Assembly: GCA_903813345.2 (NCBI GenBank)
Contig: CAIIXF020000005.1
Span: 558,001 to 622,000 of the forward strand
Reading direction: 5' to 3'
Length of the DNA stretch: 64,000 nucleotides
From: Owenia fusiformis
Lineage: Eukaryota > Annelida > Polychaeta > Sabellida > Oweniidae
Positions 7,902 through 59,166 of this stretch are shown in pieces. Below the pieces are notes generated by a model. The model did not search any database and was not told the origin of the DNA. It was given only the letters and a program-made list of their open reading frames with translations. Each line of letters begins with the position of its first letter. Positions within the stretch are counted from its first letter, which is position 1. A program made the position numbers and the translations under genes.

Positions 7902-7942
7902 TTGTAGTCAGCTTGACGGGCGGGCGGCGTCTCACTTTTCAG

Positions 7943-8940: not shown

Positions 8941-9080
8941 ATTCAAATTTTTACATATGTTACACAGTGATAAGTTCTAGAGCTGATTAACTTTTCTGCG
9001 GCCATCTTGCTTTCTTGGTCAACAAGACCACAATGCTGTGTTTTAGGTACGATATTGTTCACGTCTGTGCCTTGTTTACT
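8941..9080. repeat. Tail of the satellite-bearing element
   Basis: After the array the sequence continues through acatatgttacac, agttctagagctgatta and gcggccatcttgc, and ends ttttaggtacgatatt...tgtgccttgtt. The same order occurs at 51990-52551 in an RNASEH2A intron, so this is the shared 3' part of one element family. Confidence 0.75.
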
Positions 9081-33500: not shown

Positions 33501-34582
33501 TGAAACAAGTGATAATATTAAACAACAAATTATAAACCTCCCCAAACTGAATATCATGAACAAACCTGTAGATAAAGATAAGTTTCAGTTTCGTTTGGAT
33601 GAGGGACAGCATAGATTACCAACTATCATTGAGGAAAATGAAACATTGAGGACGAAAACATCAAAAGGTACTAAAAGTGTTAGTGCAAAGACTAATACCA
33701 CAGATAATAGCAAAGGGACAACAGATGACAATAACGACGTATCGATTGATAAATTAGCACCAAAGAAGAAACCTCAATCACAAAATATTTTTGCATCTCA
33801 AGGTAAGTGGATCTGACAAATATTTCGCATAAGGAATTCACAAATACTGAACGTGTAGAAACAATGAACGTCTCTGTGTTTGTAAAATATTCATAGGTTT
33901 GAATACTGGAGAGTATCATTTGCAATCCTTATTTTATTTTACCAAATATCAATTCTTGAAGTTCTGGTTCCATTTTTTAACTTTTTGCCAGATATTACCT
34001 GAATAATCAAAGAATGGGAGCAAATAAATGAAATTGTGACATTTTCAAAACTTACTTTCACAATTATGTTTCTGTAGAAATCCAGGCTTTTGAGTTAAGT
34101 TCGGAGAAAAGAAGAGAAAGGGAGACACCCTGGAGAGTTCATTGGCCGCGTATGAGTTCTCAGAGGGTCGGAGCTGGACACGTAATGATAGGTATGTGGG
34201 GAATTATTGGAAGATCATTTATCTTGATAGTTCTTTGAATATAATGCATCATCCTGTCACAGGGATAATTTTTCTACTTTGTCTTTATATTCTACGAACA
34301 GAAAAAATAAATGTTGTGGGCGACTTGAACAGAAAATGTTGCAGTAAATTGTTTTGTTTTTCAGGCAATAAGGTTTATATGATAGGTGGTACGAACGAAG
34401 ATCAGGAAAGTGTACACCATGTTGAATACTGGCACGTGAAGAAACGGGAATGGACGACGACATTTTCCCTCCCCCCTGGGGATTACTCGGACATTGACTG
34501 CTGTTTAGTGGACATGCCGAAGTCTAATCATAATTTCAAGTTGGATTGCTCCCTCGCTACTGGACGCTGGGTCATGTGGTGA
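30525..34582 (+). CDS. Kelch-repeat protein with a giant disordered insertion, seven exons
   Basis: Coding exons: 30525-30803, 31151-31259, 31545-31734, 32063-32220, 32474-33802, 34078-34191 and 34365-34582. All have GT-AG borders in one frame, 798 residues. Kelch blades are marked by VYLLGG (77-82), LYVAGG (126-131), LYLSGG (176-181), LYVIGG (241-246) and VYMIGG (730-735), with the usual spaced Trp and Tyr. There is no BTB or BACK domain before them; the N-terminus is short and basic. The single 1,329-bp exon 5 inserts residues about 247-688, very rich in Asp, Asn, Glu and Thr, between the fourth GG motif and the last blade. Kelch propellers mediate protein binding; the specific partner and subfamily are not evident. 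Two overlapping AATAAA signals lie at 35092-35102. Confidence 0.85.
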
Positions 34583-37811: not shown

Positions 37812-38918
37812 ATGACCATGGTCGTGAATGTTTTCTGTCAATTGCTGGTAGCGTCCATCGTTGTTTTACAACTAGGTGAGTCTACATGTCATTCTTGTGA
37901 TTTAACTATGCAGTTCTCATCTCCATTCTCGCGACTTTGGTTTGCATTGCTTCATATCGCTACGTGTACGACCACAATGTGAAAAACACGTTAAATGTCT
38001 CTAATTTTGGAATATAACTTTCACATTTATCATGGAGTCCTCGTGAATTTCCTTTTGTATTTAGAATGTTCACAATGAGCAACAATCAAACAGTGATGTA
38101 TGTTCATACACTCCCCTGCATAAGATTGGCAACTGGAAGTCCCATTTTGGATTAATTCATTATAAATTTATAAACTTGTGTAATGTTTTTTATTTTAGGA
38201 TTTTCAACTGCTCAACTTCAAAATGCTCTTGTGCCCAGATTGTGTTGGGAATGTGACGAGGACATTCAGACTTTGACGCCAAACTGTCCCTCCCCATTCG
38301 ACATTACAGATTCCACGTTTACGTTGAACTACACCATATGCCCCAGTGGGCAGTATTATTGCAAGGTATTAGAAAGAGAGCTCTATCTAGTTATTTATTA
38401 ACTGACCATTCAATTTTACTCTGCCAATAGTTTTTGACACTTCTTATCGATCGTCCCTTCTTGCACTATATACATGTAGTTTGTCGTGTTCATATTGCGT
38501 TTGTCACATTTTCTGGCATGTTCATATTGTCTGTTAGATCATTTAAAGTCATTTATAATTAGTCACATTAGTAATCATTAGTAACATTATGAATTATCAT
38601 ACATAGTTAATCACATCATCAAACATATGATATTTGAAGATGTAACAACCACTTGTTTACATTTAAAGCACTATATTACCAAATGCATCACTATGCTTTC
38701 AGAAGACAATCAGCGATGCATTCAGCGGGGCCAAAGTGTCCAGATCATGTGCTGAGACTTGCAAAGAATCTGAAGTCCTGTTTGGAATAGGAGAAACCGT
38801 GTCATGTTGTACGTCTGATAAATGCAATGGTACAGTTAGATATACAGAAGAATGGATAGTCTTGGTCTTGTCACTTGGATTTATTGCTTGGATACACTGC
38901 TTGAAAGATTCATTATAA
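37812..38918 (+). CDS. Ly6/uPAR-domain GPI-anchored surface protein, three exons
   Basis: Exons: 37812-37875, 38199-38365 and 38703-38918, 148 residues. Residues 1-21 form a signal peptide with a hydrophobic core. The ectodomain has ten cysteines (37, 40, 51, 69, 76, 93, 97, 112, 113, 118), opening CWEC and closing CCTSDKCN, the three-finger pattern of the Ly6/uPAR family. N-glycosylation sites are NYT (65) and NGT (119). A C-terminal hydrophobic tail (WIVLVLSLGFIAWI) fits GPI-anchor replacement. The phase-1 intron after the signal exon is typical for the family. An upstream in-frame ATG at 37818 is an alternative start. AATAAA lies 37 bp after the stop (38955-38960). The ligand is unknown; such genes are often lineage-expanded in molluscs. 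Confidence 0.87.
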
Positions 38919-40574
38919 ACCTTGGATATTATATTTCAAACTTGGATGGGTTAGAATAAAGGCTGGATAATATCAAAGTTAAGTTTGGAAAATATTAAAA
39001 CCTTGATAGTTCATGATAACATTGGATAATTCAGTGATGATTTATGTGTGAAGTAGATGACTTATGACATTAAAATGAAAGAATATGTAGAAGTGTCAAA
39101 GCATATTTTGATGAGATGACCTCCTTTAAGATAATGAATATAAGTGTATATATCTTACAAATAACATATACAGCTTGTAAAATAGTTGATGATGGATAAG
39201 TCAGGGAGAGCTTGTGCCCATATTATGTTCCAATGTCCAAAGTCCACTTTGCCAAACATTTGCCAATTGCTCATATCACTTGAATTGCCATGGGCATGCC
39301 AAGGGATATAAATATGGCAAGGAATCATATGCGCCAAATTTTTGGTAAAGGTTGCATTCGCTATTTTTGTCTGCCTTTTATCAAAGGCACTCTTTCGGAC
39401 TGTATCATACAGATATCATACACTATAGTCTATGTATCTTTGTCTCATAACTTTTTGGAGAAACTATACTAGTATAGAATTTCTGATTTATATTACACAG
39501 TATTTATTTCCAGTTATATAATATGTACATAGAACTTCAATTATATTTTCATATAATTCTTACAACATGTTCTGTATATATACAAGGTTCCTTAACCACT
39601 GGGTCTCAGTGTGTTGCCAGCCAACTGTGGCTTAGCAACAAGATGACCTTGAAATTCCAGTACCATGTTTTATTAATAGAAAACAACTGCATTACAAGAG
39701 TATATACAGTGGTTACCTAAACATTACACCGTAAAGGACACAACTTAGTTTTTCAACAACTTAGTTTTTCAACAAATTGACTAACTTGAAGATGCCTCTC
39801 AGAAAATATTCAATTCAATTATAACTTGTTAAAGGATAAATGAGGGGGAGGGGGTTATTGTTCTACAATCAAGAAATACTCTCCAAATAAAACGGGTGTA
39901 GCTAAGACCTAAAGTGTGTGAGGCAAACATAAATTGGCAAAACTGCAATTAAGTAAAAGATTTTTCACATTTTCAATTGAAAAAAAAATGAATTAACATT
40001 TTTCTTTAAACCGATTGCTTCACCTGCCATATGCATAGCTACACCCATAATATGAATTATATTTGGAACAATGTGGCAATGATCAACTGAATTGATGATA
40101 CAGAAGTAAATACTGTATGTCATAAACACTACCCGCAATACCCCGTACAAGCACACTACAGTAGTTATGTGGTAATACTGTATTATGCCTTTACCATCAA
40201 ATTGTGACTTAGCAAACAATATATTAACTCTATAACTCATCGTTAGTATCCCCTTAAAATGTGAACCCCTTAGAGTAGAGTTGTTATGCTAGACAATATC
40301 CCAACACCTCATTTCACATTTTGTGTCGTGACAAAATGTTTCTCAGTTCACTGTGCTGCTCTTAAATCATCGGAATTCTTGTGTAAAATTCTAAAATCAC
40401 TCATCATAAAACTTTTATGATGACCATGCTTTTCTAAAATAGAAACTTGAAGAATGAGTATCTAAAGTTTACTCAATGTATAGGTGTAAAACCAGAACAA
40501 CGGCAACGCCAAAGCGTAGCAAATCCCATCGAACAGATATAGCTGGCATTTTTACAAACGAATAGCAAATATAA
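38919..40574. other. Ly6-gene 3' end and intergenic sequence
   Basis: AATAAA at 38955-38960 serves the Ly6 gene. The rest is AT-rich DNA without supported genes; small open frames here lack homology or splice context. Confidence 0.4.
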
Positions 40575-42050
40575 AACAAGGCATTAACATGACAAAATGT
40601 CACCACCTAAAACAATTTGGTAAATTTAAAGCAAGTTGGAAAATACCTTTTGACCTTGAGAAGGTCATTGAAGGTCAAAGGTCAAATCTAAAGTCAGATT
40701 TGAACTTCTGAGAACTTGTAAAGTCAAATTTGAACTTTTGAAAAGATGTAGATGATTTTGAAAAAAAAATTTGGTCAATTTGAAGCAAGTTGAAAACAGA
40801 CCTTTTTGACCTTTTTTGACCTTGAGAAGGGCATGAAAGGTCAAATGTCAAATCTAAAGTCAGATTTGAATTTCTGAGAACATGTAGATGATTTTGAAAA
40901 AAAAATTAGTCAATTTGAAGCAAGTTAAAAAAGACCTTTTTGACCTTTTTTGACCTTGAGAAGGTCATTGAAGGTCAAATGTCAAATCTAAAGTCATATT
41001 TGAATTTCTGAGAACATGTAAATGATTTTGAAAAAAAAAATTAGTCAATTTGAAGCAAGATGAAAAAATACCTTTTTGACCCTTTTTGACATTGAGAAGG
41101 TCATTGAAGGTCAAATGTCAAATCTAAAGTCAGATTTGAATTTCTGAGAACATGTACATGATTTTGAAAAAAAAATTTAGTCAATTTGAAGCAAGTTGAA
41201 AAAAGACCTTTTTGACCTTTTTTGACTTTGAGAAGGTCATTGAAGGTCAAATGTCAAATCTAAAGTCAGATTTGAATTTCTGAGAACACGTAGATGATTT
41301 TGAAAAAAAAATTTAGTCAATTTGAAGCAAGTTGAAAAAAGACCTTTTTGACCTTTTTTGACTTTGAGAAGGTCATTGAAGGTCAAATGTCAAATCTTAA
41401 GTCAAATCTAAAGTCAGATTTGAATTTCTGAGAACATGTAGATGATTTTGAAAAAATTTTTTAGTCAATTTGAAGCAAGTTGAAAACAGACCTTTTTGAC
41501 CTTTTTTGACCTTGAGAAGGTCAAATGTCAAATCCTAAGTCAGATTTGAATTTCTGAGAACACGTAGATGATTTTGAAAAAAAAATTTAGTCAATTTGAA
41601 GCAAGTTGAAAACAGACCTTTTTGACCTTTTTTGACCTTGAGAAGGTCATTGAAGGTCAAATGTCAAATCTAAAGTCAGATTTGAAGGTCAAATGTCAAA
41701 TCTAAAGTCAAATCTAGTCAGATTTGAATTTCTGAGAACATGTAGATGATTTTGAAAAAAAATTAAGTCAATGTGAAGCAAGTTGAAAAAAGACCTTTTT
41801 GACCTTGAGAAGGTCATTGAAGGTCAAATGTCAAATCTAAAGTCAGATTTGAACTTCTGAGAACATGTAGATGATTTAGAAAAAAATTGAAGTCAGTCTA
41901 AACAGTATTTGTTAAGTTATAGGAAGTTGTAAGAAATTGTTACAGACGCCGGACGCCAACCTCCAACCACCAACCGCCAACCACCAACCGCCGTCGCAAA
42001 AAAAACGGAGACCATAACAATATGTCACCACTTTTGGTGGTGACATAACA
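40575..42050 (-). mobile_element. Minisatellite-bearing element, long copy (family M1)
   Basis: The left end aacaaggcattaacatg then tgtcaccacct and the right end ggagaccataacaa then the hairpin tatgtcaccac-ttttg-gtggtgacata match the copy at 20907-21420 in inverted orientation. The core holds about nine units of roughly 135 bp containing tcaatttgaagcaagttga, tgaccttgagaaggtcattg and tcaaatctaaagtcagattt. The unit is itself full of direct and inverted ggtcaaa/tttgacc words. Confidence 0.88.
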
Positions 42051-42051
42051 A

Positions 42052-43385
42052 CACACCAGAAAGGCCACCATTTTCAAAATGGTTGCTCACTTGCCAAGGT
42101 GTCATCAGAAGAAATAATATGCTTTTAAGTAGCCACCTCTAAAATTTTTGAAAAATCGCACACGTACTTGTAAAATAACACACATAAAAATGGTGGCCAT
42201 TTTTCAAAATGGCCGCCTACTCCCCAAAGTTTTATTAGACAATGTGCCATGCTTACAGTATTCACATATCAAATATGTACAAAATCGCTCCATTACTTTT
42301 CGAGTTATAGTAAAATACGTTAAAATGGCGGCCATTTTTCAAAATGGCCACCTTCTACCAAAAGTGGCATTAGAAATAGACAGTGTGCCATGCTTATAGT
42401 ATTCACATACCAAATATGAACAAAATCGCTCCACTACTTTTCGAGTTCTAGTAAAATATGTTAAAATGGCGGCCATTTTTCAAAAAAAAATTCAAAATGG
42501 CCGCCTTCTACCAAAAGTGTCATAGGACAGTGTGCCATGCTTATAGTATTCACATACCAAATATGAACAAAATCGCTTCACTACTTTTCGAGTTCTAGTA
42601 AAATACGTTAAAATGGCGGCCATTTTTCAAAATGGCCACCTTCTACCAAAAGTGTCATTAGAAATAGACAGTGTGCCATGCTTATAGTATTCACATACCA
42701 AATATGAACAAAATCGCTCAACTACTTTTCGAGTTCTATTATTAAAATGGCGGCCATTTTTCAAAAAAAAATTCAAAATGGCCGCCTTCTACCAAAAGTG
42801 TCATAGGACAGTGTGCCATGCTTATAGTATTCACATACCAAATATGAACAAAATCGCTCCACTACTTTTCGAGTTATATTAAAATACGTTAAAATGGCGG
42901 CCATTTTGAAAAATGGCCGCCTTCTACCAAAAGTGTCTTTAGACAGTGTGCAATGCTTGTAGTATTCACATACCAAATATGAACAAAATCGCTCCACTAT
43001 TTTTGAGTTACAGCAAAAATCATAAAATGACGAGTAAAGGCCGCCATTTTTCAAGATGGCTGCCATGCGCTTCTTTAATATCTACATTTGTAGCATTATT
43101 AATGTCCTTTATAATTTTTTTACATTTAAAACATATTGCTATTACAGTTTTACATATTGAACCTAAATTACTGTAAAATCGGCACTAAAATGGCAGCCAT
43201 TTTGAAATGATCGGCCATTTTGAAAATCGGCTTTCGAGCAGATTTTCTATCCCCATAGGGTATATGTGTACAAAATATGAACAAAATCGGGCCAACGGTA
43301 TTTGAGTTATTGCCCGGACGGACGGACGTACGGACGGACGGAGGTGTTCCCTATATCCCTCCGAACTTCGTTCGATGGGATAATG
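42052..43385. mobile_element. Second minisatellite-bearing element (family M2)
   Basis: Starting at or next to the end of the previous element are about seven units of roughly 140-150 bp. Each contains atggcggccatttttcaaaatgg, accaaaagtgtcat, ccatgcttatagtattcac and caaaatcgctccactactttt. It ends with a GGAC-rich run (cggacggacggacg, about 43315-43340) and cttcgttcgatgggat. That kind of ending is frequent in marine mollusc repeats thought to be Helitron-like; the class is inferred. Confidence 0.8.
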
Positions 43386-43594
43386 ATTCAAATAGCTATG
43401 GCCATCACAAAAATGTTTATGATTATAATAATATACACCTTGTAAATATTTTTGCAATAACCATTTTTACTGCAGTGTATTATTTTGTATATTTTGAAAT
43501 ATATACACTGTACAAGACAAGTAAAATGTAAACTTAACAACTTTTGATGGTTTCATAAATCAATAAATAAATATTGTAGAAGTGCAAAAGCCAG
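43386..43594. other. Sequence between the M2 element and the SECIS
   Basis: Probable distal 3' UTR or downstream flank of SELENOK. No AATAAA in the minus orientation was found. Confidence 0.35.
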
Positions 43595-43660
43595 TTCCAT
43601 CAGCATTGCCAGTCTGCTTAGCAACAGTTACCTAGCAATGCATCATTAAATGTTGTCACA
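43595..43660 (-). ncRNA. SECIS element of SELENOK
   Basis: On the minus strand ATGA (43646-43643) is followed by a 10-bp helix (gcattgctag pairing ctggcaatgc with one G-U pair), an unpaired AA in the apical bulge, a small apical helix (ctgtt/agcag) and the returning strand ending in TGAT (43602-43599). This matches a type II SECIS: the AUGA/UGA non-Watson-Crick core plus the conserved AA. It lies about 240 nt past the stop in the 3' UTR, the right place to recruit SBP2 for selenocysteine insertion. Confidence 0.85.
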
Positions 43661-43887
43661 GCAACAATAACTAGCTGATGCATCTTCCCAAGCACAATCC
43701 AATCATCACGTTTCAACTAAACACAGTGCATATAATAGGATTTCAGAACAATGCCATTATTTTGTTAATGACTCCTTTGAAATTGAGAGTTTCTCTTTTC
43801 ACCCTAGATAATAGTCTCATATAATAATTTGATTAGATTATGGTTGTCGTGGCAACAGGCCCTCTTTGTGCATTCACCAGAGGGCGC

Positions 43888-46800
43888 TTATCTGCCTCAT
43901 CCACCTCCTGCCATTGGTGGTGGACTCGGACCACCTGGAAAAGAAATTTCAATATTTTACGCTTTGATTTCCTGAAAAGAAACTTCTATCAATAACATAG
44001 TATTCATTGCATTTTCAATGGAAGCTTAATTGATGGATTCTCTTAACTCAATCAAGTTCATAAGTTGGCACTTTACACATTTATTTAATAGTAGCCACCA
44101 AAGTTCATAAATTAACATGTTGATCATTAAATGTTGCCACCAAAGTGTGCAACCAAGAAAATCAAACTCCACTTGGCTAAAGGTAAGACATTCTTTGTTA
44201 TATTTTTAAAATTGCACACATACATGTACATACAAAACCAAATACAAATGTCAAGTAAAAATAAGCGCCATTACAAAAGCACTACATTCAGCATATTCAA
44301 AAGCCTTTTCATTACATGCTGACAAAGTCTTCTTGTTCTATAAAATGGTGATAACTTATAAAATCTTATGTGATTCTACTTACCACCACCTCCTCTGAAT
44401 CCTCCCATTCTTCTCCTTGGTGGGGGAGGGGGCCTGGAGAAAAATTATTTTAATCTTTATTGTTTTTACTCCAATGAAATTTAGAAAATAAATGCAAAAC
44501 AGACGTACGAATAACTGTTGTTGATTTACAATAGTAGGTCTGGAAAAGTTCTGGACACTAAGGTTTCAAATTTTAGACCTGTAAGGCCACCCCTTTAATT
44601 CCCTTTTTTAAATATACCCATTTAAGCAGAGAAAGTGGATCAACTATTTCTCAAGAATCTTATTTGCAAAAGTTATTATTTGAGAAAAATAAAACTTTGA
44701 ATGGACTGTATCTAAAAAGAATTAACTATTGGTTACTGAGTGGTAACATATTATGTGAAACATAACAATATGAAATGGAATCTCAACAAATTACATGGAT
44801 CATATCATCATTCTACAACTTGCATACCCATTAATGCATGTGAATAAATTATATGATGTCATACTCAAATTATCAAATAGCACACTGGACATTATAGGAT
44901 CATTCACTCTGAAATTGTATAAAATGAGGCTAAAGTGGCTATCATATAATAGATGTACTTACCCTTGTCCACCCCCACCTCCACCACCACCTCCAACTCT
45001 ATAATCTGTAGTGTAGCTTTCTCTACCTTTCTTTGTTGTACTTGGCTGAAATATAATATAGAATGTACAACTCTATAATCTGTTGTGAAGCCTTCTCTAC
45101 CTTTCTTTGTTGTACTTGGCTGAAATATAATGTAGAATGTACAACTCTATAATCTGTAGTGTAGCTTTCTCTACCTTTCTTTGTTGTACTTGGCTGAAAT
45201 ATAATGTAGAATGTACAACTCTATAATCTGTAGTGTAGCTTTCTCTACCTTTCTTTGTTGTACTTGGCTGAAATATAATGTAGAATGTTCAACTCTATAA
45301 TCTGTAGTGTAGCTTTCTCTACCTTTCTTTGTTGTACTTGGCTGAAATATAATGTAGAATGTACAACTCTATAATCCGTAGTATAGCTTTCTCTACCTTT
45401 CTTTGTTGTACTTGGCTGAAATATAATGTAGAATGTACAACTCTATAATCTGTAGTGAAGCCTTCTCTACCTTTCTTTGTTGTACTTGGCTGAAATATAA
45501 TGTAGAATGTACAACTCTATAATCTGTAGTGAAGCTTTCTCTACCTTTCTTTGTTGTACTTGGCTGAAATATAATGTAGAATGTACAACTCTATAATCTG
45601 TAGTGTAGCTTTCTCTACCTTTCTTTGTTGTACTTGGCTGAAATATAATGTAGAATGTACAACTCTATAATCTGTAGTATAGCTTTCTCTACCTTTCTTT
45701 GTTGTACTTGGCTGAAATATAATGTAGAATGTTCAACTCTATAATCTGTAGTGAAGCCTTCTCTACCTTTCTTTGTTGTACATTGCTGAAATATAATGTA
45801 GAATGTACAACTCTATAATCTGTAGTGTAGCCTTCTCTACCTTTCTTTGTTGTACTTGGCTGAAATATAATGTAGAATGTACAACTCTATAATCTGTAGT
45901 GAAGCCTTCTCTACCTTTCTTTGTTGTACTTGGCTGAAATATAATGTGCAATGTACAATTCAGTTGGACTTATTTGTTAATATTGTTTTATAATTGTTTT
46001 ACATGACTGCCTTTATGTTGAATGCTTGAACTGATAAAATTAGAGACATCACAAAATCCATTTACATGTATCTGTGAATTCATAACACATTAGTGATAAA
46101 ATCCCCAGACATCTAAGACATGATAAAGGAAGAACTTACGATTCATGTTTGGTTCACATAAGCCACATACATTATTTGAACTCTTGTGACTTGCTTAAAT
46201 GATTAGAATCTACACATGCTTCAGTATTTTATATATTGTACCATTTATTTTATTTATTGTTAATTTGTACCATTTATTTTATATATTGTACCATTTATTT
46301 TATATATTGTAGCATTTACCCAACATTCAATGTCATAACAAGAACTTGTCACTTATTCGTTTATTTCCATGATACTGTAATATGTGATTCAAAAGGCAAA
46401 TAAAAAGAGATCCCCAAGCTTATGTTGGGGCCTACATGATCCTCATGCTTATGTTGGGGCCTACACGATCCCCAAGCTTATGTTGGGGCCTACATGATCC
46501 TCATGCTTATGTTGGGGCCTACATGATCCTCATGCTTATGTTGGGGCCTACATGATCCCCATGCTTATGTTGGGGCCTACATGATCCCCATGCTTATGTT
46601 GGGGCCTACATGATCCCCATGCTTATGTTGGGGCCTACATGATCCCCATGCTTATGTTGGGGCCTACATGATCCCCATGCTTATGTTGGGGCCTACATGA
46701 TCCCCATGCTTATGTTGGGGCCTACATGCTCCCCATGCTTATGTTGGGGCCCACATGATCCCCATGCTTATGTTGGGGCCCACATGATCCCCAAGCTTAT

Positions 46801-49800
46801 GTTGGGGCCTACATGATCCTCATGCTTATGTTGGGGCCCACATGATCCCCAAGCTTATGTTGGGGCCTACATGATCCTCATGCTTATGTTGGGGCCTACA
46901 TGATCCCCATGCTTATGTTTGGGCCGACATGATCCTCATGCTTATGTTGGGGCCCACATGATCCCCAAGCTTATGTTGAGGCCTATATGATCCTCATGCT
47001 TATGTTGGGGCCTACACGATCCCCATTTGGATGCATGTTGGAGGTCACATAGTAAAGGACATTCAAATGACAGAAATCACGTAGAACCCCACACATGTTG
47101 ATATCATAATATTTACTTCTCTTAAATTAGCAAATAAAATCAATAGACTTACCATAACCATTGTTTGAAAGCTGGAAGATAAAGAATAAACACAAATTAA
47201 ATACAGATAAATACAGCTGCTACATCTGAATCAAGCTGCCACAGATGGTGGAGTTTGAATGTGAGATAAATAAATTGAATTCCGATATTTCCCCTTAACC
47301 TTTTTTCTTGAATGTACCAAGCTTAAAAGTAATTGCTCACAAATTACGCATAAGACATAAGCATGTTTCAACGAGTGCATGTAGCTTGTGTAATTTCAAT
47401 AAAGTAATTAACTTCCTATACTCGTATGTGAGCAATATTTCCGATGTTTACAGGGAAGGTTTGCAACAAAGTCTACAGGTGGTAATAAGTGATACTGAGT
47501 CCCTTAATTTAAACAAATATCTCTCGTAATATTATTTTATTTTTCAGTCTTTTGTGCAGTATGGTTATACCTACAGCCAAAAGGATCATGTAGTGTATCG
47601 CGAACAGTTTTGGACAGTTTTATTTTTGACAAGGAGTATTGTTAGACTACACATTCCCCGTTTTACATAAGAAGAATATACAATTCCCCTATCAGTGGTT
47701 ACTGGCAGAGGGAAGGAGAAACTTTTCATATGGTTAAAATGAGAAAAGGAGATCTTTTTTAAATAAGAACATTTTCGAAAAACTGAGATGGTTACAACTG
47801 TAATCCATTATCCATCGGTTTAATTCAAATGACATTTCTTTTACTTTTTGTGCTTAAGTTGAAGATCGCATTGTTCTAATGTAAAAAAAGGAATGTGTGA
47901 TACTCAGAGTCAAAAATAAAACTGTCTAGAATTATTTGCAATGTACTCTGCGATCCTTTCATTTTTGGTTGTTTTTATTCAAATAATAAAGATACAAACT
48001 TATTTTAATAAATATTTAATCACTTACAAGAGGACTATAAAGTTAATGATTCCCCAGAACATTTCCGGAATGAAGCTTAGTCTCCATGGAGACTGGGACT
48101 CCAGCATCTGTCCTGCAATCAAAATGAAACCACATCACCATGACGTATTGTATATAAACTAAATGTACTTGAAACTACATGCTCTTGTACATTAAAACAT
48201 GTATATCTGAACACCTCTCTAATCTGAACAACTCAACCATATTGAATATAAACAAAATGTACTTGTACATATACATGTTTATCCTATGCCAAGTAGAGTT
48301 TTAGGGAGATAAGTTGGTCAGATATATCCCGTATCCTGATTTTGAGGTTTCCATATCCAGAACCTCCATATCTCCCGCCATATCTCCCGCTTCGGTGCAT
48401 ATCTTCCCGCTTCCGGTGCATATCTTCCCGCTTCCGGTAATGCAATAAAATGACTTGATTTGTTTATTTTTACACCTTGTACTGTTGAAATGGCCATATG
48501 CCCCTGAAAAGTCTACTTGGTATAGGATAAAGCAGTTATGTACGGTCAGTTTGGATATTGGGTTCATCCCTCGTGAGGGATGAACCCTACGGTCCCTCAG
48601 GTAGATATGCATATCTCCCTCTGGATAAACCCCATATCCAAAACCTCCCAGTACATAACCCTTATATATCTGAACAACTCTAAATAAGAACACTTTGGTA
48701 TTCTGCATAGAAAGGCTTTGATATATATGTTTTGGTATTATCATGAAGAAATCAATTTTGAATATGATTAAAGTACATGTATAAAACATTTTACTCATTT
48801 AAAAGTCAACAAAAAGACTAAGAAAAAGAGGTATCAAATTGTTCACTTGGAGTCAGGAGTGTTGCATTGTGAACAGTCATTCCAATAAAAACATAATTTG
48901 TGGGAAAATGTCCAGTTTCATTATTGCAATAATTATGATGAATTCCATTTTGTTTTAAACTATCAAAAAGTAGTAGTCTTTTGATGTCTTATATATCAAT
49001 TGTTTTTTAGGTTTTACCCAATGAGGACTGGTTCCCAGAGTGCAACATCAATATTCTGTCCAATATGTGGGCACTATATATAAACATTGACAGGGACCCT
49101 CGCCGCATATGGGGTACCTTTTTTTCCATTTGGTATGGCAATAAACCTACATTTTAGGATCTGGTATGAGAATGCCTCTTCAAATTTATGACACGAGGTA
49201 TGATGATGGTCAAGTTTTTCCTTTTCCTGGTATGAGAATGGTTGTGGAAAATAGGTTACCTCACAATTGCGGTATGGTATTGGTCTAATAGTTACATACA
49301 GTATCCTTGATTTGAGGTTGTTTTTGATCGTTTTCCTCATATATCTGCCTTCTTCCCAAGGCCTTCTTCAATTTGAATATTAGTTTTTTCTACTTTGGAC
49401 ATTTGGTATGGCATTGGTCCTATATAAAGACATTTGGTATGGCATCAGTCTTATTTCTGAACATTTGGTATGGTATTGGTCCTATATTTGGGCATTTGGT
49501 ATGGCTTTTAGGCGTAATTTTTCTTGGAATGGGAACACATTTAAATTTGACAGTTTGGAACATATCGATATCTGAGGATTCAGCCTATGACCCCCTCCAA
49601 AATCTATAGACCCCTCGGGTGTGGGCATGTCGTGATACAAAATTTGAATTCAAACAGCTGCGGTTTTGTTCACTTCAACATTTGAATCGTGAACTTTGGT
49701 CTTATTTCTGAGCGAAAATTTCCAAAACTCACAAGAAATGATCGAGATATTGGTTGAAACAGGGGCTTTCAAATCTAATTTGTAAGCCCATGGTTGAAAT

Positions 49801-50496
49801 GAAATCTATTGAACTGTTTATTTTGAATTTTTAGTTGGTTATGATTTCAGAAAATAATGAAAATTCAATGTTTTCATTGTTGGTAAAAATCGCGTTTCAA
49901 TCCTGGGAGCCAATCCTTGGGTTTCCACTAGAGGCAATCTGCGCGAGATTCCATTTTTTGGTTCGGTTTTTAGGGCATGCGCAATAAATCCAGCAATTTA
50001 ATTGGTTCAAATTATTATAACGCATGCGCAACTAATAACTTATAGGAACATTTAATTTGAGATAGATGTCACTTATGTTCATTTTTTCACAGCAGTCCCT
50101 AGCCATGATGCACCATATAGTGCGGGAATATTTTTGTTTATTGTCAAAACAAAAAGTATGCACCCAAAACTCAAATATCTGGCGATGAAGCAGTTTGTTT
50201 TCTTCTGGCTGTCAGTGCTTTGGATTATTAAATAATTAGATAAAACATAGTCAGAGCAGATTGTTATTATTACATGACTGGACTTTATTGAAAATATTAC
50301 ATATTATCGCCCAGTTGATTTTTTACAAACATTTCAACTGGATATTTTGAAATTATATGATTACACATTTCAACACAATACATCTCAAGTGAATCTATGT
50401 ATATCCATAGACACGGTAATGCCAGTGCAAATATTTTATAATGTCCCTTTTGAGTAGAAAACAATGAAAACACTCACCTCCCGACACGTAAACCAT
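43888..50496 (-). CDS. SELENOK: Selenoprotein K, six coding exons, selenocysteine at TGA 43899-43897
   Basis: Minus-strand exons in order: 50496-50478, 48112-48028, 47171-47153, 45045-44963, 44433-44384 and 43934-43888. They give 100 residues (the human protein has 94). The N-terminus MVYVSGGQ, then SPWRLSFIPEMFWGIINFIVLFF, is the family's single membrane helix and SPWRLS block. A cytosolic Gly/Pro/Arg-rich tail includes nine glycines in a row (59-67) and PPPPPRRRMGG. The end is PSPPPMAGGG-Sec-GR, then TAA, with TGA as codon 98. The family protein sits in the ER membrane, supports palmitoylation by DHHC6 and takes part in ER stress and calcium signalling. Two exons contribute only 19 nt each. 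Its promoter is shared with RNASEH2A. Confidence 0.95.
45046..45960 (-). repeat. Twelve extra tandem copies of the SELENOK exon-4 acceptor and exon start
   Basis: The acceptor core (ctg on plus, CAG on minus) recurs at 45046, 45120, 45194, 45268 and onward to 45934, exactly 74 bp apart. That makes 12 duplicate units beyond the real exon. Each holds the tttcag acceptor plus 51 nt coding PSTTKKGRESYTTDYRV or variants (EGF, ESF), followed by 23 nt of intron. None carries the Gly-rich part or the donor of exon 4. Since 74 is not a multiple of three, read-through shifts frame and meets stops. Confidence 0.93.
46409..47017. repeat. 29-bp minisatellite, 21 units, in the same SELENOK intron
   Basis: The unit is gatccccatgcttatgttg followed by gggcctacat; starts at 46409, 46438 and so on to 47018 are spaced 29 bp. 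Each unit contains the self-complementary pair ccccaa/ttggggc, so a strand could form a row of small hairpins. Variation is limited to a few positions. Confidence 0.93.
47579..47960. mobile_element. Small inverted-repeat element in a SELENOK intron
   Basis: tggacagttttatttttgac (47611-47630) is inverted at 47909-47928. The outer ends (aaaggatcatgtagtgtatc and its weaker mirror) resemble the termini of the 15343-17963 element. About 380 bp, non-coding. Confidence 0.65.
48271..48660. repeat. Nested inverted repeats in SELENOK intron 1
   Basis: tatcctatgccaag (48271-48284) mirrors cttggtataggata (48517-48530). A perfect 28-bp palindrome at 48560-48587 (gggttcatccctc-gt-mirror) is itself enclosed by tttggatat and atatccaaa. 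The mixture suggests overlapping fold-back insertions. Confidence 0.65.
48715..48990 (+). repeat. Dispersed repeat, copy 1 (family D1)
   Basis: It shares ttccaataaaaacataattt, gtgggaaaatgt, gcattgtg and ataattatgatgaattccaa with 60745-61000 in the same orientation. The copy at 60633-61183 preserves terminal inverted repeats; this one does not show them clearly. Confidence 0.7.
49090..49520. repeat. Cluster of TTTGGTATGG direct repeats
   Basis: catttggtatggcattggtc and variants recur at about 49400, 49431, 49461 and 49491, roughly every 30 bp, with looser copies at 49130-49280. Located in SELENOK intron 1. Confidence 0.6.
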
Positions 50497-50806: not shown

Positions 50807-53800
50807 ATGGATATCAGCGGTTATAAGAAAAACAACTCTAAAAGTCACGTGGTAGCATCTGTTGTTCCAGAGATTACAAAAACTGAGCCATGTTGGCTTG
50901 GAATTGACGAGGCGGGAAGAGGACCAGTTTTAGGTTTTTGATTTTTCCTGTTTCTAGGCTAGACAATAGTCGAATTATAATCGCTAATCCATAGGCTAAG
51001 GGTTAAGTAATAGTAAGCTGTATAAAGAAGAGACAGGTTAACAACTAGGATTTAGGCCACTTGTTAACATGGCGATTTTAACATTATTTGTGTATAATTT
51101 TCAAAAAACAATGCAGAGTTGATCCAAAATTGATAGTTTGCAATTCTTACCTATGAATCAACCACATTCAAGTGATATAGAGTGAATAAAGCCGTCTTGA
51201 GGCGAGATATTCTGAAAACCTACAATTGCCTGGCAAGTTACCCGGATTTCCGTGTTGAATCATGAATGGAAGTTTGAAACAAGGAATTTGATTGGTTCCT
51301 GCTAACCGCCGCCAGTGACACCTATCTGGTTCTCTAAAATGTAATTCATTTTCTAGAAATAACAATCAATTAAAGTGTACAAAACTATAAAAGGTTTACT
51401 TAATAATTATTTATCAAAACATCTGATTCATATAATATATTTTTAAACCCATTTTTCTTGGAATTTTAAACTTCTAATTACAACCAATCAAATCAATCGT
51501 TACAAGATTCAATCTTTCCATGTGTCCGGAAGTTTCAACTTGCCGGGCAATTGCAGGTTCGTACAGTTGGTGTTTTTTTATGCTGTCTTATCGAAGAGTT
51601 AGGATATAGATTTGAAATATTCAACAATCTACGTTTCGAAAACACTTTGGAGAAGATTCTTGGGAGATTTGGTGGTACGACTCGATATCAGTAAGGAGAA
51701 CTCGTACCAAGACGGCAAGTTTTTGAAAAAATTTTCAATCCTAATTGTTGACCTGTCTCTTCTATATACAGCTTACTATTACTTAACCCTTAGCCTATGC
51801 GCTAATCGGTAGAAGATAATATAATTTCTAACCTGGCCTAACCTCTTTCAAATGCTGACTTATCTGATAGTAGATGATGTTCTATTTGTTGTTGATGTCC
51901 GCCTTTGAAAGAGGAAGGTGTATTTCTTGGAAGTTTTGAGATAAATCTTTTCATCGCGATTCCAGGAAGACCACTTAAGGCATATTTGCTCTAAATTTTC
52001 ACACATGTTACATGGTAAGAAGTTCTAGAGCTGATATTAACTCTTTGGCGACCATCTTGCATTCTGGTCGCCATCTTGGAAGTTTATAGATAAATCTTGT
52101 CATCGCAATTCCAGGAAAACCACTTAAATTTTCACACATGTTACATGGTACGAAGTTCTAGAGCTGATTAAATTTTCGTTGGCCATCTTGCATTCTGGAA
52201 GCCATCTTGAAAGTTTTTAGATAAATCTTGTCATTGTGATTCCAGGTAAACCATGTGACAGATTTACTTCGAATTTTCACACATGTTACATGGTAAAAAG
52301 TTCTAAAGCTGATTAACTTTTCGGTGGCCATCTTGCATTCTGGCGGCCATCTTGGAAGTTTTTAGATAAATCTTGTCATCGCAATTCCAGGAAATCCACT
52401 CGACGTGTTACCTAACAAGTTCTAGAGCTGATTTACTTTTCGGTGGCCATCTTGGATTCTGGCAGCCATCTTGGAAGTTTTTAGATAAATCTTGTCATCC
52501 CAATTCCACACTGCTATGTTTTAGGTACGATATTTCACCCTGTGCCTTGTTCTCATTTTATTTTAGGTCCAATGGTGTATGGTATTGCCTACTGCCCAAT
52601 CTCAATGAAAGACAAATTGAAAGATATGGGACTTGCAGGTTTGGTTATTTCCATGATATATGTAGGGCCTCGTGAATATTTTTGAAATAAAACATATCAA
52701 GGGTGTTACTAGCTAGTTGATGAGGCATATTTAAAAGGGTGAGGGAAAAATTTAGGCAATTTATTCTGACTATCACAAGACTTCATTTTCACAGTTTGAA
52801 TTGAAAAGAAATTTATGTATTTGCTTGATGAACTATTTCAGATTCAAAGACCTTATCTGAGGAAAAAAGAGAAAGTCTGATGAATAGCATAGATGAAGCC
52901 AAAGACTACATGGGCTGGATTGTCAATATCCTTGCCCCAAATGCCATTTCTAATGGCATGCTTAGAAGGTATGTTTATGTTATGTACATGACAAGTTCTA
53001 ATTATCTACAATCAAAATTACAAGAAATCAGAAAATCATTGTATTTATTCGTTCTGCAGGTGTAAATACAACTTGAACGCGATATCACATGACACGGCTA
53101 TAGGACTTGTACAGAAAGCTATTGAGAAGGGGGTAAATGTAAAAGAGGTAAGGGTTCATTTACTTTATGTTTCTTTGCTTATTTGTTTGTAGATACAGTA
53201 AAACTCATAGGTTTTGGGCCCAACTAAAGATGGCAGCAGAGGTAGAATCATAACAAACACAGATTGATTGGCATGCCATCTTTATTTGAAAACTATTTTT
53301 ATCATTCTTTAGCCTATGGTAAAACCTGAAAATAGAACACCTTATAGTCCCATTACCAATTGACTTAATTTTAAATGAACCTCTGTAAGTGGAACACCTC
53401 TCGAGTCATTTTAGATGTACGAAAGTTTTTCACTTTGAGTTAAGGGGTCAACTGACTGTTCTACATCTATGACCTATCTACAGGTAGACTGGCTAAATTG
53501 TATACCTCAATTGTAAATTTGACTGGAATCCACATGTATTCTTTTCATGGACATACAACTATTAGATATTGTCTACCCATAGGCAAATTATGCGCCTCAT
53601 ACTGACCAATCAGATTGGAGCATTTTAAATGTATTATTTTGCCTTATAGGTTTATGTTGATACAGTGGGGCCACCAGAAAAATATCAAGCTAAGCTAGAA
53701 GGAATATTTCCAGATTTGAAAATAACAGTTGCCAAAAAGGCCGATGCCCTTTATTCCATAGTCAGTGGGGCCAGTATATGTGCAAAAGTAAGTCTACTTA

Positions 53801-56346
53801 ATGAAATTTTATTGTACCTTAAGGTGGCCTATAACCATGTTTATTTTTTCGTGAAGCAACTCAGTAAAATTACGATTTCTTCGGACCCTAAATTCAATGT
53901 ATCTATGCCCAAAAGTGTCAGGAACACATACTCGTTTGATCTTGATTGAACATCAGGGTGCAGAGAAATCTTAATTTTACTGAGTGGCTTAAGGTGGCTT
54001 AAAATGATGCTTATTTTTTCGTTCCCGAGACACAAATCCACAACTCATCCCCTGGACAACTCATATCCTGGACATCTCATCCCCTAGACAGCTCATCCTC
54101 TGGACAACTCATCCCCTGGATGACTCATCCCCTGAACAACTCATCCCCTGGATGACTCATCCCCTGGACAACTCATCCCCTAGACAACTCATCCTCTGGA
54201 CAACTCATCCCCTAGATAACTCATCCTCTGGACAACTCATCCTCTAGACAACTCATCCCCTAGACGACTAATCCTCAGGACAACTCATCTCATGGACAAC
54301 TCATTCCCTGGACAATTCATCTCCTGGACATCTCATCCCCTAGACAGCTCATCCTCTGGACACCTCATTCCCTGGATGATGAACAACTTATCCCCTGAAC
54401 AACTTATCCCCTGGATGACTCATCCCCTGGACAACTCATCCCTAGACACCTCATCCCCTAGACAACTCATCCTCTTGACAGCTCATCCCCCTAGACAACT
54501 CATACCCAAGACAACTCATCCCCTAGACAACTCATCACCTAGCCAACTCATCCTCTGGACAACTCATCCCCCAGAGAACTCATCCCCTAGACAACTCATC
54601 CCCTGGACAACTCATCCTCTCGACAACTCATCTCCTGGACATCTCATCCCCTAGACAACTCATCCTCTAGACAATTCATCCCCTAGACAACTCATCCCCT
54701 GGACAACTCATCCTCTGGACAACTCATCTCCTAGACATCTCATCCCCTAGACACCTCATCCCCTAGACAACTCATCCTCTGGACAACTCATCCCCTGGAC
54801 AACTCATCCAATGGACAACTCATCTTCTGGACATCTCATCCCCTAGACAACTCATCCTTTGGGTAACTCATCCTCTAGACAACTCATCCCTGAGACAACT
54901 CATCCTCTAGACAACTCATCCCTAGACAACTCATACCTAGACAACTCATCCCTGGACAACTCATCCCCTAGACAACTTATCCTCTGGACAACTCATCCCC
55001 TAGACAACTAATCACTTGGATGATTCATCCTCTAGACAACTCATCCCCTAGAGAACTCATCCCAGGACAACTCATCCTCTGGACAACTCATCCCTGGACA
55101 ACTCATCCAATGGACAACTCATCCCTGGACAACTCATCCCCTAGACAACTTATCCTCTGGACAACTCATCCCCTAGACAACTAATCCCCTGGATGATTCT
55201 TCATTTGGCTTCATTTAATGTTATATTATCAATTCATATTATTGATATAATATATAGAGGTTATTTAATGGGAGATTTTTGATACAGGGTATATCTGAGG
55301 GAAATACAATATATCTATATTGTATTTACCGAGGGATATGCCCTGCATCAAAAATCGAGCATTTAATTACTGATTTATTCTATATAAAGTAGATTATGAG
55401 GAATAATAGGTAAGTCCCCTGACTCAGTATCTACTCCCTGAATTTGTGACGTCGTAGATATATATCTCCTGCTCAAGTCACATCAATTATATTTCCGCAT
55501 GTTATTTACCTATAACACCACTAAGTATGGAATAAATTGAGATATTGTGGCCAATGTGAATAAATTTAGGATTTTGCACCATGTGGAGAAAAAACTAAGA
55601 AGTGATTTATATAGGTTTGGATACTGTGGCAATGATTCTTCTCTTCTGTAGGAGGCTATAGTCTACTTAAGTTACATTTCAATTTAGATAACTTTTAAAT
55701 CAAGTTTTGATTATTGATAAAATTAAAATCTTGGTATTTTTGAAATTTAAAAGTTGCAGAGGTCAGCATAATATCTATGGCTGGTTTCAATTTTCAGGTA
55801 TGCAGAGACCATTGTGTAAAAGAGTGGGAATTTAAAGAAGGCATTGAAGTAGACAACTTTGGCTCTGGATACCCTGGAGGTAATATACATAGATGTTATT
55901 GATCAACCCTCGTACATACTAGATGTTATTGAGTGGCAGGGGTGGAATAGGAATTTTATATTGACCAAGGAAAATATCATATTTATTATTCATTATTGCC
56001 TGAGTGCCGGCCTGAGTGTTCATATTCTATCACAACCTTCAATAACCTAGTTATTACAAATTATTTTTTCTGAAACTTTATTTTAAAACTGTATGTTATC
56101 ACCCAATGAAAGTAACATGATACAATTTAATTTATCATAAACATTTATTAACTTTTACAAATTTTAAAAATGATGAAGATGTGGTTTCCCCATGGGTAGA
56201 TTCATTTTTAACATATTTCCAGATCCAAACACCAAGAACTTTATGAAAGAACAATTAGATCCAGTGTTTGGTTTCCCTCAACTTGTACGTTTTGGATGGT
56301 CAACTGCGTACAATGTCATTGATGAGAAGTGTGTCTCTGTTTGCTG
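50807..56346 (+). CDS. RNASEH2A: Ribonuclease H2 subunit A, seven exons found, last exon missing
   Basis: Exons: 50807-50933, 52567-52638, 52842-52968, 53060-53147, 53650-53787, 55798-55879 and 56223-56346, 252 codons plus two bases. Residues [20 protein letters not shown] (30-49) hold the catalytic Asp34 and Glu35. [24 protein letters not shown] (Asp142) and [19 protein letters not shown] (Asp170) complete the DEDD site. GSGYP carries the tyrosine that senses the RNA-DNA junction, and [13 protein letters not shown] is the conserved C-terminal block. The protein nicks 5' of ribonucleotides in DNA and degrades RNA-DNA hybrids in the nucleus, in complex with subunits B and C. The human protein has 299 residues, so about 45 C-terminal residues are not located. 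Reading through the last donor gives Trp then TAA, a possible short isoform. Confidence 0.94.
50980..51810. mobile_element. Fold-back element with about 70-bp terminal repeats in RNASEH2A intron 1
   Basis: The left end (ataggctaagggttaagtaa, agtaagctgtata, gaagagacaggt, aactaggatt; 50983-51052) is inverted at 51738-51808 with few changes. A weaker inner pair (acctacaattgcctggcaag at about 51218 and its mirror near 51540) extends the fold-back. About 830 bp, non-coding. Confidence 0.85.
51940..52552. repeat. Degenerate satellite and element tail in RNASEH2A intron 1
   Basis: Four to five units of 118-146 bp start tagataaatcttgtcat and contain acacatgttacatggta, agttctagagctgatta and ggccatcttgcattctgg. 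The final part ttttaggtacgatatt...tgtgccttgtt matches 9041-9075. The repeat ends about 15 bp before exon 2 (52567), so it supplies part of the intron's 3' end. Confidence 0.8.
53862..53985. repeat. Small inverted-repeat element in RNASEH2A intron 5
   Basis: actcagtaaaattacgattt is mirrored by aaatcttaattttactgagt. Similar ttaaggtggc...tttattttttcg sequence flanks both sides, as a long direct duplication would. Confidence 0.6.
54040..55200. repeat. About 17-bp minisatellite, roughly 65-70 units
   Basis: The unit gacaactcatcccctag/ctg varies at its last bases (cctct, ccaat, gatgactc). It fills about 1.15 kb of RNASEH2A intron 5. A resulting open frame (54292-54654) is an artefact. Confidence 0.9.
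55275..55360. repeat. Imperfect palindrome in RNASEH2A intron 5
   Basis: tttttgatacagggtatat on the left mirrors atatgccctgcatcaaaaa on the right, around a centre with gagggaaatacaatatat. The gagggatat words also occur at 61430-61490. Confidence 0.65.
55361..55797. other. Remainder of RNASEH2A intron 5
   Basis: AT-rich, ending with the exon 6 acceptor tttcaattttcag. No other feature was recognised. Confidence 0.4.
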
Positions 56347-56779: not shown

Positions 56780-58651
56780 TTACATGTATTGTCCAAATTT
56801 TTCAGTTGCAATTTTCTTTAAGCTCTCACGATCGACCTTTCCATTATTGAGTGTTGGTATCTGATCTAGCATGAAGAAATATCTTGGTGCGTTGTTCATA
56901 CCATCTGCTGTGAAATCTCCAAATACCCCCTTACACCATTCTTTGATTTCCACGTCAGTTAATGTCAGTCCGTCCTTGACCTTGATACATGCGCAGAGTT
57001 CCTCGTAAAGGCGAGGGTCTGGGACACCCACAACCTGAACTTGGTCGATGCTACAGTGTTCTAGCAGTATATTCTCTATTTTACCTGGGTGAACGATCAC
57101 TGTGCCTCGTTTAATGAACTCTTTCAGGCGGCCCACGATTGTCACATAACCATAAGGTGTTAGGGTGCCAATATCTCCCGTATGCAACCATCCATATTCA
57201 TCAATGATTTCGTTGGTTTTAGCTGGATCATTGAGGTACCCTTGAAACACATTCGGCCCCCTGGTGCATATTTCACCCTGAGTGTTAATAGGGAGGATCT
57301 TGTTATCTTTATCTCTAATGCTAATCTCTACATTTGGAGACCCATAGCCAACAGTGAGGTGTTGCTTTGTGAAGTCAGCTATTGGGAAGATGGAAGAGAT
57401 GAAGCCACCCTCTGTTAGACCTATTAAGAGGACAGAAAATGATAGAAACATGAAATAATTGCATTTGTAGTCAGATAAATAAGAAGTTAAAAATAGTAGA
57501 AGTAAACCTATTATACCTCGTATACTAGAATTAAGATTCCACTTACCGTATCCAATCACTATTCCAACACCAAGCATCTTTTTGATATTCTCAATGAGAT
57601 TAGGATCAATTCGTTGACCTCCCGTCATTACACTCTTCAACTTGGACATATTATAACTCGCTCTTTTTGCAGTCTCCATGTTCATGATGTCATACATCAA
57701 ATACGGCATGAGAACGGTGTAGGTAACTTTCTCCTCTTGAATAATCTGAAGGAACGTCTCAGGGCCCGAATTCTGTACGGTTTGTTTTGCATCAATTGTG
57801 ACTATTGTTGTTTCAGCAGCGAGGGCAATAGCAAATGATCCCACGCCTCCCATCCATGACATTGGACGATCGTTGAACATAATACTACCTTTTGGAAGGC
57901 CAATTCTCATTTGGGAAGCCTTTGCCATGTGTATAAAGCATCTATGGGACAAAGGGCAGTATTTTGGTTTCCCCGTACTACCTGATGTTAGATTAATCCA
58001 AACAGCATCATCCATAGAGACATTATCATTGCATGATAATATACCCAATTTTTCCTTATCAGATTTCTCTTTCAGCAAATTTGGGAAGTTGACTCCACCT
58101 TTGGGGACGTCATCCGCAATCAGAACTACATGCTTCAATGTGGGCATTGTGTCATCACATTCACTATTTAAAACTTTCCCAAATAGTTTCAGCACAATAT
58201 CTCTTTGTTCTGCATCACCAATGTGTACTATTATCACACAGATCCCAGTCTCCTTGATTTTAACCTCTATGTCTTTTCCACTTTTAAGGTCATAGGTCAG
58301 AAACACAGGTAGCGCTGCACAATGTAGTAACGCTCCAACAGTGACTACAATCTCTTCACAGTTAGGCACGATTACTCCAACTTTATCCCGAGGCTTTACA
58401 CCTAGATCAACCAATGAGACAGCCAGGTTCTCAGACTGGGCCACCCATCTTTTGAATGTGATGCTACTTTTCCGAGTTCCATTCGGATTCATGAAAACAA
58501 ATGCTTCCTGTTCGCTATCCTTCAAATCCCGCAAATAGTCATAAAGAGTATCAGCGGTTAGTGCTTGTTTGGATGCTACATGGATATAACTCTTCTTTAA
58601 TGGCTCCTTAATAGGTTCTACATCAGCTCCTGTCACATTGATGTACTCCAT
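56780..58651 (-). CDS. Acyl-CoA synthetase / AMP-dependent ligase (ANL superfamily)
   Basis: Exons 58651-57547 and 57420-56780, 581 residues. LTSGSTGKPK (221-230) is the P-loop-like AMP motif. GYGLTEGG spans the intron (Gly369), WLHTGD (446-451) holds the ATP-ribose aspartate, and GRLKEFIKRG opens the C-terminal lid. NNGKVDRE (560-567) contains the adenylation lysine, Lys563. The usual GGxxIxPxEIE after the hinge is changed to GTVIVHPGKIE. The enzyme class activates a carboxylate to an acyl-adenylate and then a CoA thioester; the chain length is not predictable here. ATG 58651 follows an acceptor (tattccag, ending 58658), so a 5' UTR exon lies upstream. No PTS1 ends the protein. It lies antisense, either nested in a large last RNASEH2A intron or just downstream. 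Confidence 0.9.
   Translation of the reverse strand: MEYINVTGADVEPIKEPLKKSYIHVASKQALTADTLYDYLRDLKDSEQEAFVFMNPNGTRKSSITFKRWVAQSENLAVSLVDLGVKPRDKVGVIVPNCEEIVVTVGALLHCAALPVFLTYDLKSGKDIEVKIKETGICVIIVHIGDAEQRDIVLKLFGKVLNSECDDTMPTLKHVVLIADDVPKGGVNFPNLLKEKSDKEKLGILSCNDNVSMDDAVWINLTSGSTGKPKYCPLSHRCFIHMAKASQMRIGLPKGSIMFNDRPMSWMGGVGSFAIALAAETTIVTIDAKQTVQNSGPETFLQIIQEEKVTYTVLMPYLMYDIMNMETAKRASYNMSKLKSVMTGGQRIDPNLIENIKKMLGVGIVIGYGKWNLNSSIRGIIGLLLLFLTSYLSDYKCNYFMFLSFSVLLIGLTEGGFISSIFPIADFTKQHLTVGYGSPNVEISIRDKDNKILPINTQGEICTRGPNVFQGYLNDPAKTNEIIDEYGWLHTGDIGTLTPYGYVTIVGRLKEFIKRGTVIVHPGKIENILLEHCSIDQVQVVGVPDPRLYEELCACIKVKDGLTLTDVEIKEWCKGVFGDFTADGMNNAPRYFFMLDQIPTLNNGKVDRESLKKIATEKFGQYM
57421..57546 (-). other. 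126-bp stop-free in-frame intron in the synthetase
   Basis: The donor (gtaagtgg at 57546-57539) and acceptor (ttaatag ending 57421) split the glycine codon of YGLTE. The intron is a multiple of three and has no stop in frame. Retention would insert 42 mostly hydrophobic residues (with IIGLLLLFLTSYLS) into the adenylation motif. Confidence 0.85.
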
Positions 58652-59166
58652 CCTTTTCTGGAATAAGAAAATATGGAGGCCTGGAGCTTTGCTGTTTTCA
58701 GAATGGTAATGTGCCAACCTTAGTGTTAACCATTTATGAAAAATTATTGGGAATGGCAGTCATTTGAAGGGATAGAAATGAGTTTGTCACAATTTGCTCA
58801 TGTCATTCCATGGCATGCTTATTTCTAAAAAGTCCAACTGTGTTCTGATCCTTCAATTTTAGGGATCTTTTGGCAAAAAAGTGGAAATCCCCTTTTTCAA
58901 CCCTATTGAATTGAACATTGCGTCAAATCTTCAATAACGTCTGTATTTCATCAGATATCTTCTTTTTTCAGAAAATAAAATTAGTAAATTGGCATGCTTT
59001 TTGAAAATATTGTGTCTAACATTTTAACATGCCTGTGATTTATGATTTAGAAAAAGTTAATCATTAATTTACATTTTTAATATACAACAGTAACCAATGT
59101 TTGTATGAAAAAGGTCTATGACATGGCATTTTTACTCATATGTAGGTCTTGCATCAAATCGAGAAT
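58652..59166. other. Upstream region of the synthetase gene
   Basis: AT-rich. It includes the acceptor just before the start exon; the 5' non-coding exon was not located. Confidence 0.4.

Follow-up and report, generated by a model that had tools for sequence, protein, structure and literature searches.

The SELENOK gene in the window, by which we mean the whole 64,000-nucleotide stretch of DNA that was analysed, carries thirteen head-to-tail copies of the boundary between intron 3 and exon 4. Very probably, this array represents a mirage-type minisatellite, consisting of mostly tolerated, near-neutral DNA that is bypassed in splicing.

The gene was rebuilt from matches to human SELENOK together with splice sites, yielding six coding exons on the minus strand. 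The coding part of exon 1 (50478–50496) encodes MVYVSG, ends in phase 1 and is followed by the donor gtgagt. The 85-nt exon 2 (48028–48112), encoding the transmembrane part, was located by a tblastn match to human SELENOK (E = 2e-8), by its splice sites and by a match to the Pfam family SelK_SelG. Exon 3 (47153–47171), placed by frame and splice sites, has a length of 19 nt and a phase-0 end. The true exon 4 (44963–45045) measures 83 nt, the first 51 of which belong to the last array unit, and ends at the donor AGG/gtaagt. It is followed by the 50-nt exon 5 (44384–44433) and by the coding part of exon 6 (43888–43934), where tblastn recovered GPSPPPMAGG and where a TGA (43897–43899), read as selenocysteine, precedes the TAA stop (43888–43890). 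The rebuilt protein comprises 100 residues, selenocysteine counted, and matched SelK_SelG over profile positions 1–86 of 86 with 103.9 bits (cut-off 23.3; E = 7.3e-30). Searching the genome with the same family resulted in a single match, namely exon 2 of the array-bearing SELENOK. The C-terminus reads GGG-TGA-GR-TAA, making the predicted selenocysteine the third residue from the end. Pattern and fold indicated a candidate SECIS element at 43598–43646 (minus strand), with AUGA, AA and UGA arranged around a 10-bp stem. Its fold has a z of −2.1, an equally good fold being obtained in 6 of 200 shuffles, and it is absent from the Rfam matches: the whole window yielded none at the gathering threshold, and a lax scan of 40500–44000 (E ≤ 10) yielded 17 matches with a best E of 0.15, SECIS not among them.

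The array, as delineated by TRF, spans 44994–45958 on the minus strand with a period of 74, 13.0 copies, 96% matches, 0% indels and a score of 1783. Each of its 13 units of 74 bp comprises the last 23 nt of the intron and the first 51 nt of exon 4, the consensus in gene direction being GTACATTCTACATTATATTTCAG (23 nt, intron side) followed by the 51 nt of exon 4. Thirteen acceptors TTTCAG/C are set at an exact spacing of 74 nt. The true unit is the last one in gene direction, with the first base of exon 4 at 45045, and leads on to that exon's glycine codons and strong donor, whereas the 12 upstream units each run into the next unit. These 12 decoys, together with the 23 intron nucleotides that belong to the true unit, occupy 45046–45956 (minus strand), the first exonic bases behind the decoy acceptors being 45119, 45193, 45267, 45341, 45415, 45489, 45563, 45637, 45711, 45785, 45859 and 45933. 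Chance cannot account for 13 almost identical 74-mers in register, and a DNA search of the assembly, in which very common words were skipped, matched the array only at its own locus, in two pieces. Both the TRF result and the TTTCAG register bear out the original prediction that the acceptor and the start of exon 4 had been copied 12 extra times, with the true exon as the last unit. Since exon 3 ends in phase 0, the 51 nt correspond to 17 whole codons, which are free of stops in all 13 units; the predicted 17 in-frame codons per decoy were thereby recovered, as was the observation that the exon portion is a multiple of three and the full unit is not (74 = 2 mod 3). Intron 3 contains a second minisatellite at window positions 46409–47026, built of 29-bp units in 21.3 copies with 93% matches.

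Individual units depart from the consensus at 0–4 positions. Units 4, 8 and 10, all of them decoys, are identical to it, and the true unit differs by one intron base. The first unit exhibits the most intron-side changes (2), and the outermost unit alone reads GCACATT instead of CTACATT; array edges usually escape homogenisation. Higher-order repeat structure was sought by comparing units at increasing lag, where mean differences of 2.1–3.7 indicated no clear period. Translation of the units reveals one variable residue pair, read as Ser-Tyr in seven units including the true exon, Gly-Phe in four, and Gly-Tyr and Ser-Phe in one each. The anticipated alternation of Ser-Tyr with Gly-Phe or Ser-Phe is therefore present, with Gly-Tyr as an additional variant. 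Moreover, unit 2 starts with Gln-Cys replacing Pro-Ser.

Variable sites occur at about equal density in the exon-derived (7 of 51) and the intron-derived portion (4 of 23), and by our own reading the seven exon-derived sites split into four nonsynonymous and three synonymous ones. Nothing in this pattern suggests that the decoys are retained as coding sequence, and the array appears too young for more to be said. TTTCAG is intact in 12 of 12 decoys and PSTTKKGRE..TTDYRV is kept in 11 of 12, which would also fit selection on the decoys, although intact decoys carry little weight because the array is young.

The edges of the array point to a simple origin. The outer flanks read AGAGTTG/GAGG on the exon side and GAATTG/TACATT on the intron side, with TTG common to both, and the unit junction is AGAGTTGTACATT. 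From these sequences we infer that a tandem duplication at a 3-bp match, followed by growth, suffices to account for the array. In the founding event, a 74-bp piece consisting of 23 nt of intron and 51 nt of exon 4 would have been duplicated once, presumably by a slip or an end-join at the common TTG, and later expansion would have proceeded by ordinary minisatellite turnover. Located in the intron, the extra copies would be removed with it during splicing. The real acceptor would be selected by exon definition, as it is the sole acceptor 83 nt from a strong donor and the decoys lack a good donor at exon distance; under exon definition, an 83-nt exon with a strong donor is expected to win. The array may be tolerated because only its last acceptor lies close to the real donor, and judged from its sequence it would be neutral. 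Among the three roles originally considered, namely neutral slippage, a splicing decoy and a source of exon variants, neutral slippage is thus the best supported.

We scored donor-like sites by a plain, untrained count of matches (of 9) to a donor consensus. The site GTT/GTACAT at the unit end is present in 10 of 12 decoys, the other two having GA for GT, and reaches 4 of 9 matches; CAA/GTACAA in 12 of 13 units reaches 5, and the internal AAG/GTAGAG, found in all 13 units including the real exon, reaches 6. The five real SELENOK donors score 7–8. The earlier statement that the decoys have no proper donor hence holds insofar as none of them possesses a good one, but has to be amended for the weak donor-like sites.

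These sites bear on the proposal that the array supplies cassettes, in which decoys would serve as 51-nt in-frame exons through GTT/GTACAT and an acceptor at least two units further on, extending the cytosolic tail of the protein by 17-residue repeats. On paper such a cassette exists: exon 3 ends in phase 0, the 51 nt are exactly 17 codons, a chained product stays in frame, and skipping one unit leaves a 97-nt intron. Nevertheless, splicing between adjacent units would require a 23-nt intron, so that introns of at least 97 nt are needed, the donor reaches just 4 of 9 matches compared with 7–8 for real donors and is replaced by GA in 2 of 12 decoys, and changes between units show no bias to synonymous sites. 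We consider a role as a source of exon variants extremely improbable, and of the earlier suggestion only the in-frame cassette as such stands.

The consequences of decoy use without further splicing within the array can be calculated. Joining exon 3 to decoy k would create an exon 4 of 83 + 74k nt. Decoys 2–12 would each lead to a stop after 97 codons, 113–853 nt upstream of the last exon junction, and decoy 1 would shift the frame, which then runs beyond exon 6 without a stop. Given these premature stops and the frame shift, only the last acceptor yields SELENOK, barring cassette splicing. A stop well upstream of the last exon junction is expected to elicit nonsense-mediated decay. The array might accordingly damp expression, with some transcripts joining exon 3 to a decoy, stopping early and being degraded, such that copy number would set the SELENOK level. 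Every decoy acceptor is identical to the real one over the last 11 intron nucleotides, and decay would be expected for the stops of decoys 2–12. Against this, decoy-initiated exons of 157–971 nt would have to compete with an 83-nt exon beside a strong donor, conservation of the decoys does not exceed what the youth of the array explains, and published lancelet mirages are reported as splicing normally. Taken together, we regard such damping as unlikely.

Repeats are a usual site of assembly error, and the copy number could in principle have been inflated by misassembly of a shorter array. We hold this to be very unlikely, as the array is shorter than 1 kb and carries unit-specific variants in mixed order, the host contig has matches beyond 42 Mb, and comparable arrays, not all of one age, are present at further exon edges of the same genome.

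Those other arrays emerged from a survey of 85 loci, comprising 24 homeobox, 1 SELENOK, 30 RRM and 30 kinase loci. They were chosen non-randomly as the best-scoring matches, that is, the best 24 of 139 homeobox, the best 30 of 121 RRM and the best 30 of 144 kinase matches. Ten loci sharing sequence with another locus were dropped (L021, L029, L031, L035, L038, L046, L047, L048, L054 and L055), and SELENOK itself (L025) was excluded from the edge-zone test, leaving 74 loci. Of their 148 zones, 22 were longer than 400 nt and were excluded; exon ends are approximate and the survey is small. For acceptors, arrays overlapped 3 of 62 zones versus 7 of 124 shifted controls; for donors, the figures were 1 of 64 versus 7 of 128. 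Enrichment at exon edges was therefore not found in these loci (4 of 126 edge zones versus 14 of 252 control zones), exon edges being hit no more than their surroundings. Array sequence makes up 4.2% of the 75 non-redundant loci, and within the domain stretches matched in all 85 its share is 0.06%; the latter figure is lowered by the choice of loci, because a locus with a disrupted domain would have escaped matching. Both the coverage contrast and the edge counts are as predicted by neutral growth with removal inside exons.

The four zone overlaps comprise two true splice-edge arrays (L002 and L072) and two arrays located about 130 bp (L032) and 100 bp (L040) above an acceptor. L002, on contig C1 in the Hox cluster, carries at 479–1497 an acceptor-spanning array of 76-bp units in 13.4 copies directly above the homeobox exon of a Hox gene, which we take to lie between Lox5-like and Dfd-like genes. 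Its unit includes about 17 exonic nucleotides, and the AG is kept in 12 of 13 decoys. In this older array, mean conservation over 13 units is 0.91 in columns as far as the acceptor AG versus 0.92 in the rest, suggesting neither retention nor purging of the decoy acceptors. The splicing decoy that had been suggested for SELENOK finds no backing as a selected function: nothing indicates that decoy acceptors are retained, exon edges are not enriched in arrays, and the published cases are reported to leave splicing undisturbed.

L072, presumably a LATS-like kinase on the basis of its sequence and encoded on the minus strand, bears at 667–1472 an array of 35 copies of a 23-bp unit that begins at an exon donor, GTAAGTAATGAT. 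The donor G is present in 12 of 36 TAAGT sites including the true donor, corresponding to 11 of 35 decoys, and this column is the most variable among those not fixed by the anchor. The loss of the G of GT in the kinase array hints that decoy splice sites may carry a cost, which weighs against neutrality. The contrast between L002 and L072 would agree with decoy donors being costly and decoy acceptors cost-free, but with one array each it proves nothing, and shared descent of the units could equally give the L072 pattern. Further arrays were found by eye, outside the edge-zone count. An RRM gene (L041) has at 1019–1268 a 29-bp donor-side unit in 8.7 copies, with CAAGGTA five times, the true donor included, and CAATGTA twice; in L036 an array starts at a donor, and L046 exhibits a two-copy acceptor duplication. 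In both L041 and L036, the donor concerned is that of an adjacent exon.

One could extend these observations to a bolder reading, in which the SELENOK array is a brake tunable by copy number, its decoy acceptors sending some transcripts into decay, and the boundary arrays of SELENOK, the Hox gene and the LATS-like kinase act as heritable, fast-mutating splice modifiers, with decoy donors worn by selection and acceptors tolerated. We rate this as quite unlikely.

The homeobox matches lie mostly on contigs C1–C12, with a few on C172, C195 and C262; C1 carries the Hox genes. Among the Hox translations are a Lox5-like gene, whose homeodomain is followed by KLTGP, and Lox2/Lox4-like genes. We take these to be spiralian signatures, which speak against a lancelet origin. 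Searches of the assembly for the GFP family and for the molluscan haemocyanin family gave no matches, which is weak evidence as the respective controls also remained without matches; COX1 likewise gave no matches in the assembly.

Arrays spanning an exon boundary have been described as mirage minisatellites in the lancelet genes for Adh3, the globins BflGb6 and BflGb9, troponin C and PGBD5, and, in the available text, are reported as not interfering with splicing (PMC3087553, PMC3902484). For BflGb6, regular splicing was suggested by RT-PCR, with splice signals present in many units, and somatic instability was reported for the Adh3 mirage (PMC3087553, PMC3902484). The two BflGb6 haplotypes carry 6 and 3 units of 150–160 bp with 81–100% identity, and the same work proposed intron gain from mirage units and a possible role of such units as cryptic splice sites (PMC3087553). 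BflGb6 and the SELENOK array are alike in layout, each unit joining an intron's 3′ end to the 5′ portion of the exon that follows, and differ in that SELENOK has 13 units, each of 74 bp and with 96% matches, instead of 6 or 3 units of 150–160 bp. In the SELENOK array we likewise find units spanning one intron/exon boundary, minisatellite-sized head-to-tail copies and, in the additional copies, recurring splice signals. It differs from the lancelet mirages in the gene affected and in its apparently spiralian host, and is known here from the DNA of one assembly. The lancelet host of the earlier cases reflects where they were recorded and does not define the structure.

A minisatellite in human IFI6, described in 1995 (NAR 23:1854), reportedly contains multiple splice donors that, going by the title, are used as splice sites in the transcript, and it is said elsewhere to interfere with splicing of the gene. 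Known to us from that title and a citation, it resembles the SELENOK array in multiplying a splice site within a gene, yet on the donor instead of the acceptor side. Novel intron positions in Drosophila were traced to tandemly duplicated coding sequence containing a proto-splice site (PMC2891723). Both cases involve tandem duplication copying splice signals; however, in Drosophila a duplicated exon piece gives rise to a new intron, while in SELENOK an existing intron grows and no new intron position is apparent. Within the partial coverage of our literature search, no other clear case of a mirage-type array outside lancelets came up. In the accessible parts, PMC7960049 uses "mirage" only as the name of a transposon class, and the earthworm genome paper PMC12130307 mentions minisatellites and exon-intron boundaries unconnected with each other.

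The kind of array is thus already known and named in the literature, a point that the original prediction did not raise, and what is new is SELENOK as the gene and, apparently, a spiralian as the animal group. Mirage minisatellites, in the literature as far as covered described under that name from lancelets only, would apparently extend to a spiralian genome, including Hox and kinase genes. The SELENOK locus offers a natural multi-acceptor test bed with 12 decoys, fixed 74-nt steps, one true exon and a clear read-out. Two old questions thereby become testable, namely how the spliceosome chooses between acceptors that are almost the same, and whether arrays of this kind give rise to new exons or introns.

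Elsewhere in the window, a Pfam scan of 10 frames gave matches in five. These comprise an AMP-binding enzyme (56783–58759, minus strand), an RNase HII exon (53650–53946, plus strand), a GTSE1-like frame (12726–13637, plus strand), a kelch protein (34094–34579, plus strand) and an open frame at 38667–38915 (plus strand) that matches the TOLIP and cobra-type models of the Ly6/three-finger fold and has a hydrophobic C-terminus. We guess that its product is probably a GPI-anchored Ly6-like protein.

Tandem units also recur between the window and other places of the genome. Related units of 135–146 bp (CCATGCTTATAGTATTCACATACC...) at window positions 42203–43010, in L037 (1–509) and in L038 (2872–3210) belong to a dispersed repeat family. 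Units of 162 bp with GGGCATTCTGGGT occur at two genome places, the window (7932–8943) and L078 (4–720). Finally, two 39-bp arrays, similar in sequence once one of them is reverse-complemented, lie near unrelated genes at window positions 276–455 and in L007 at 52–367.
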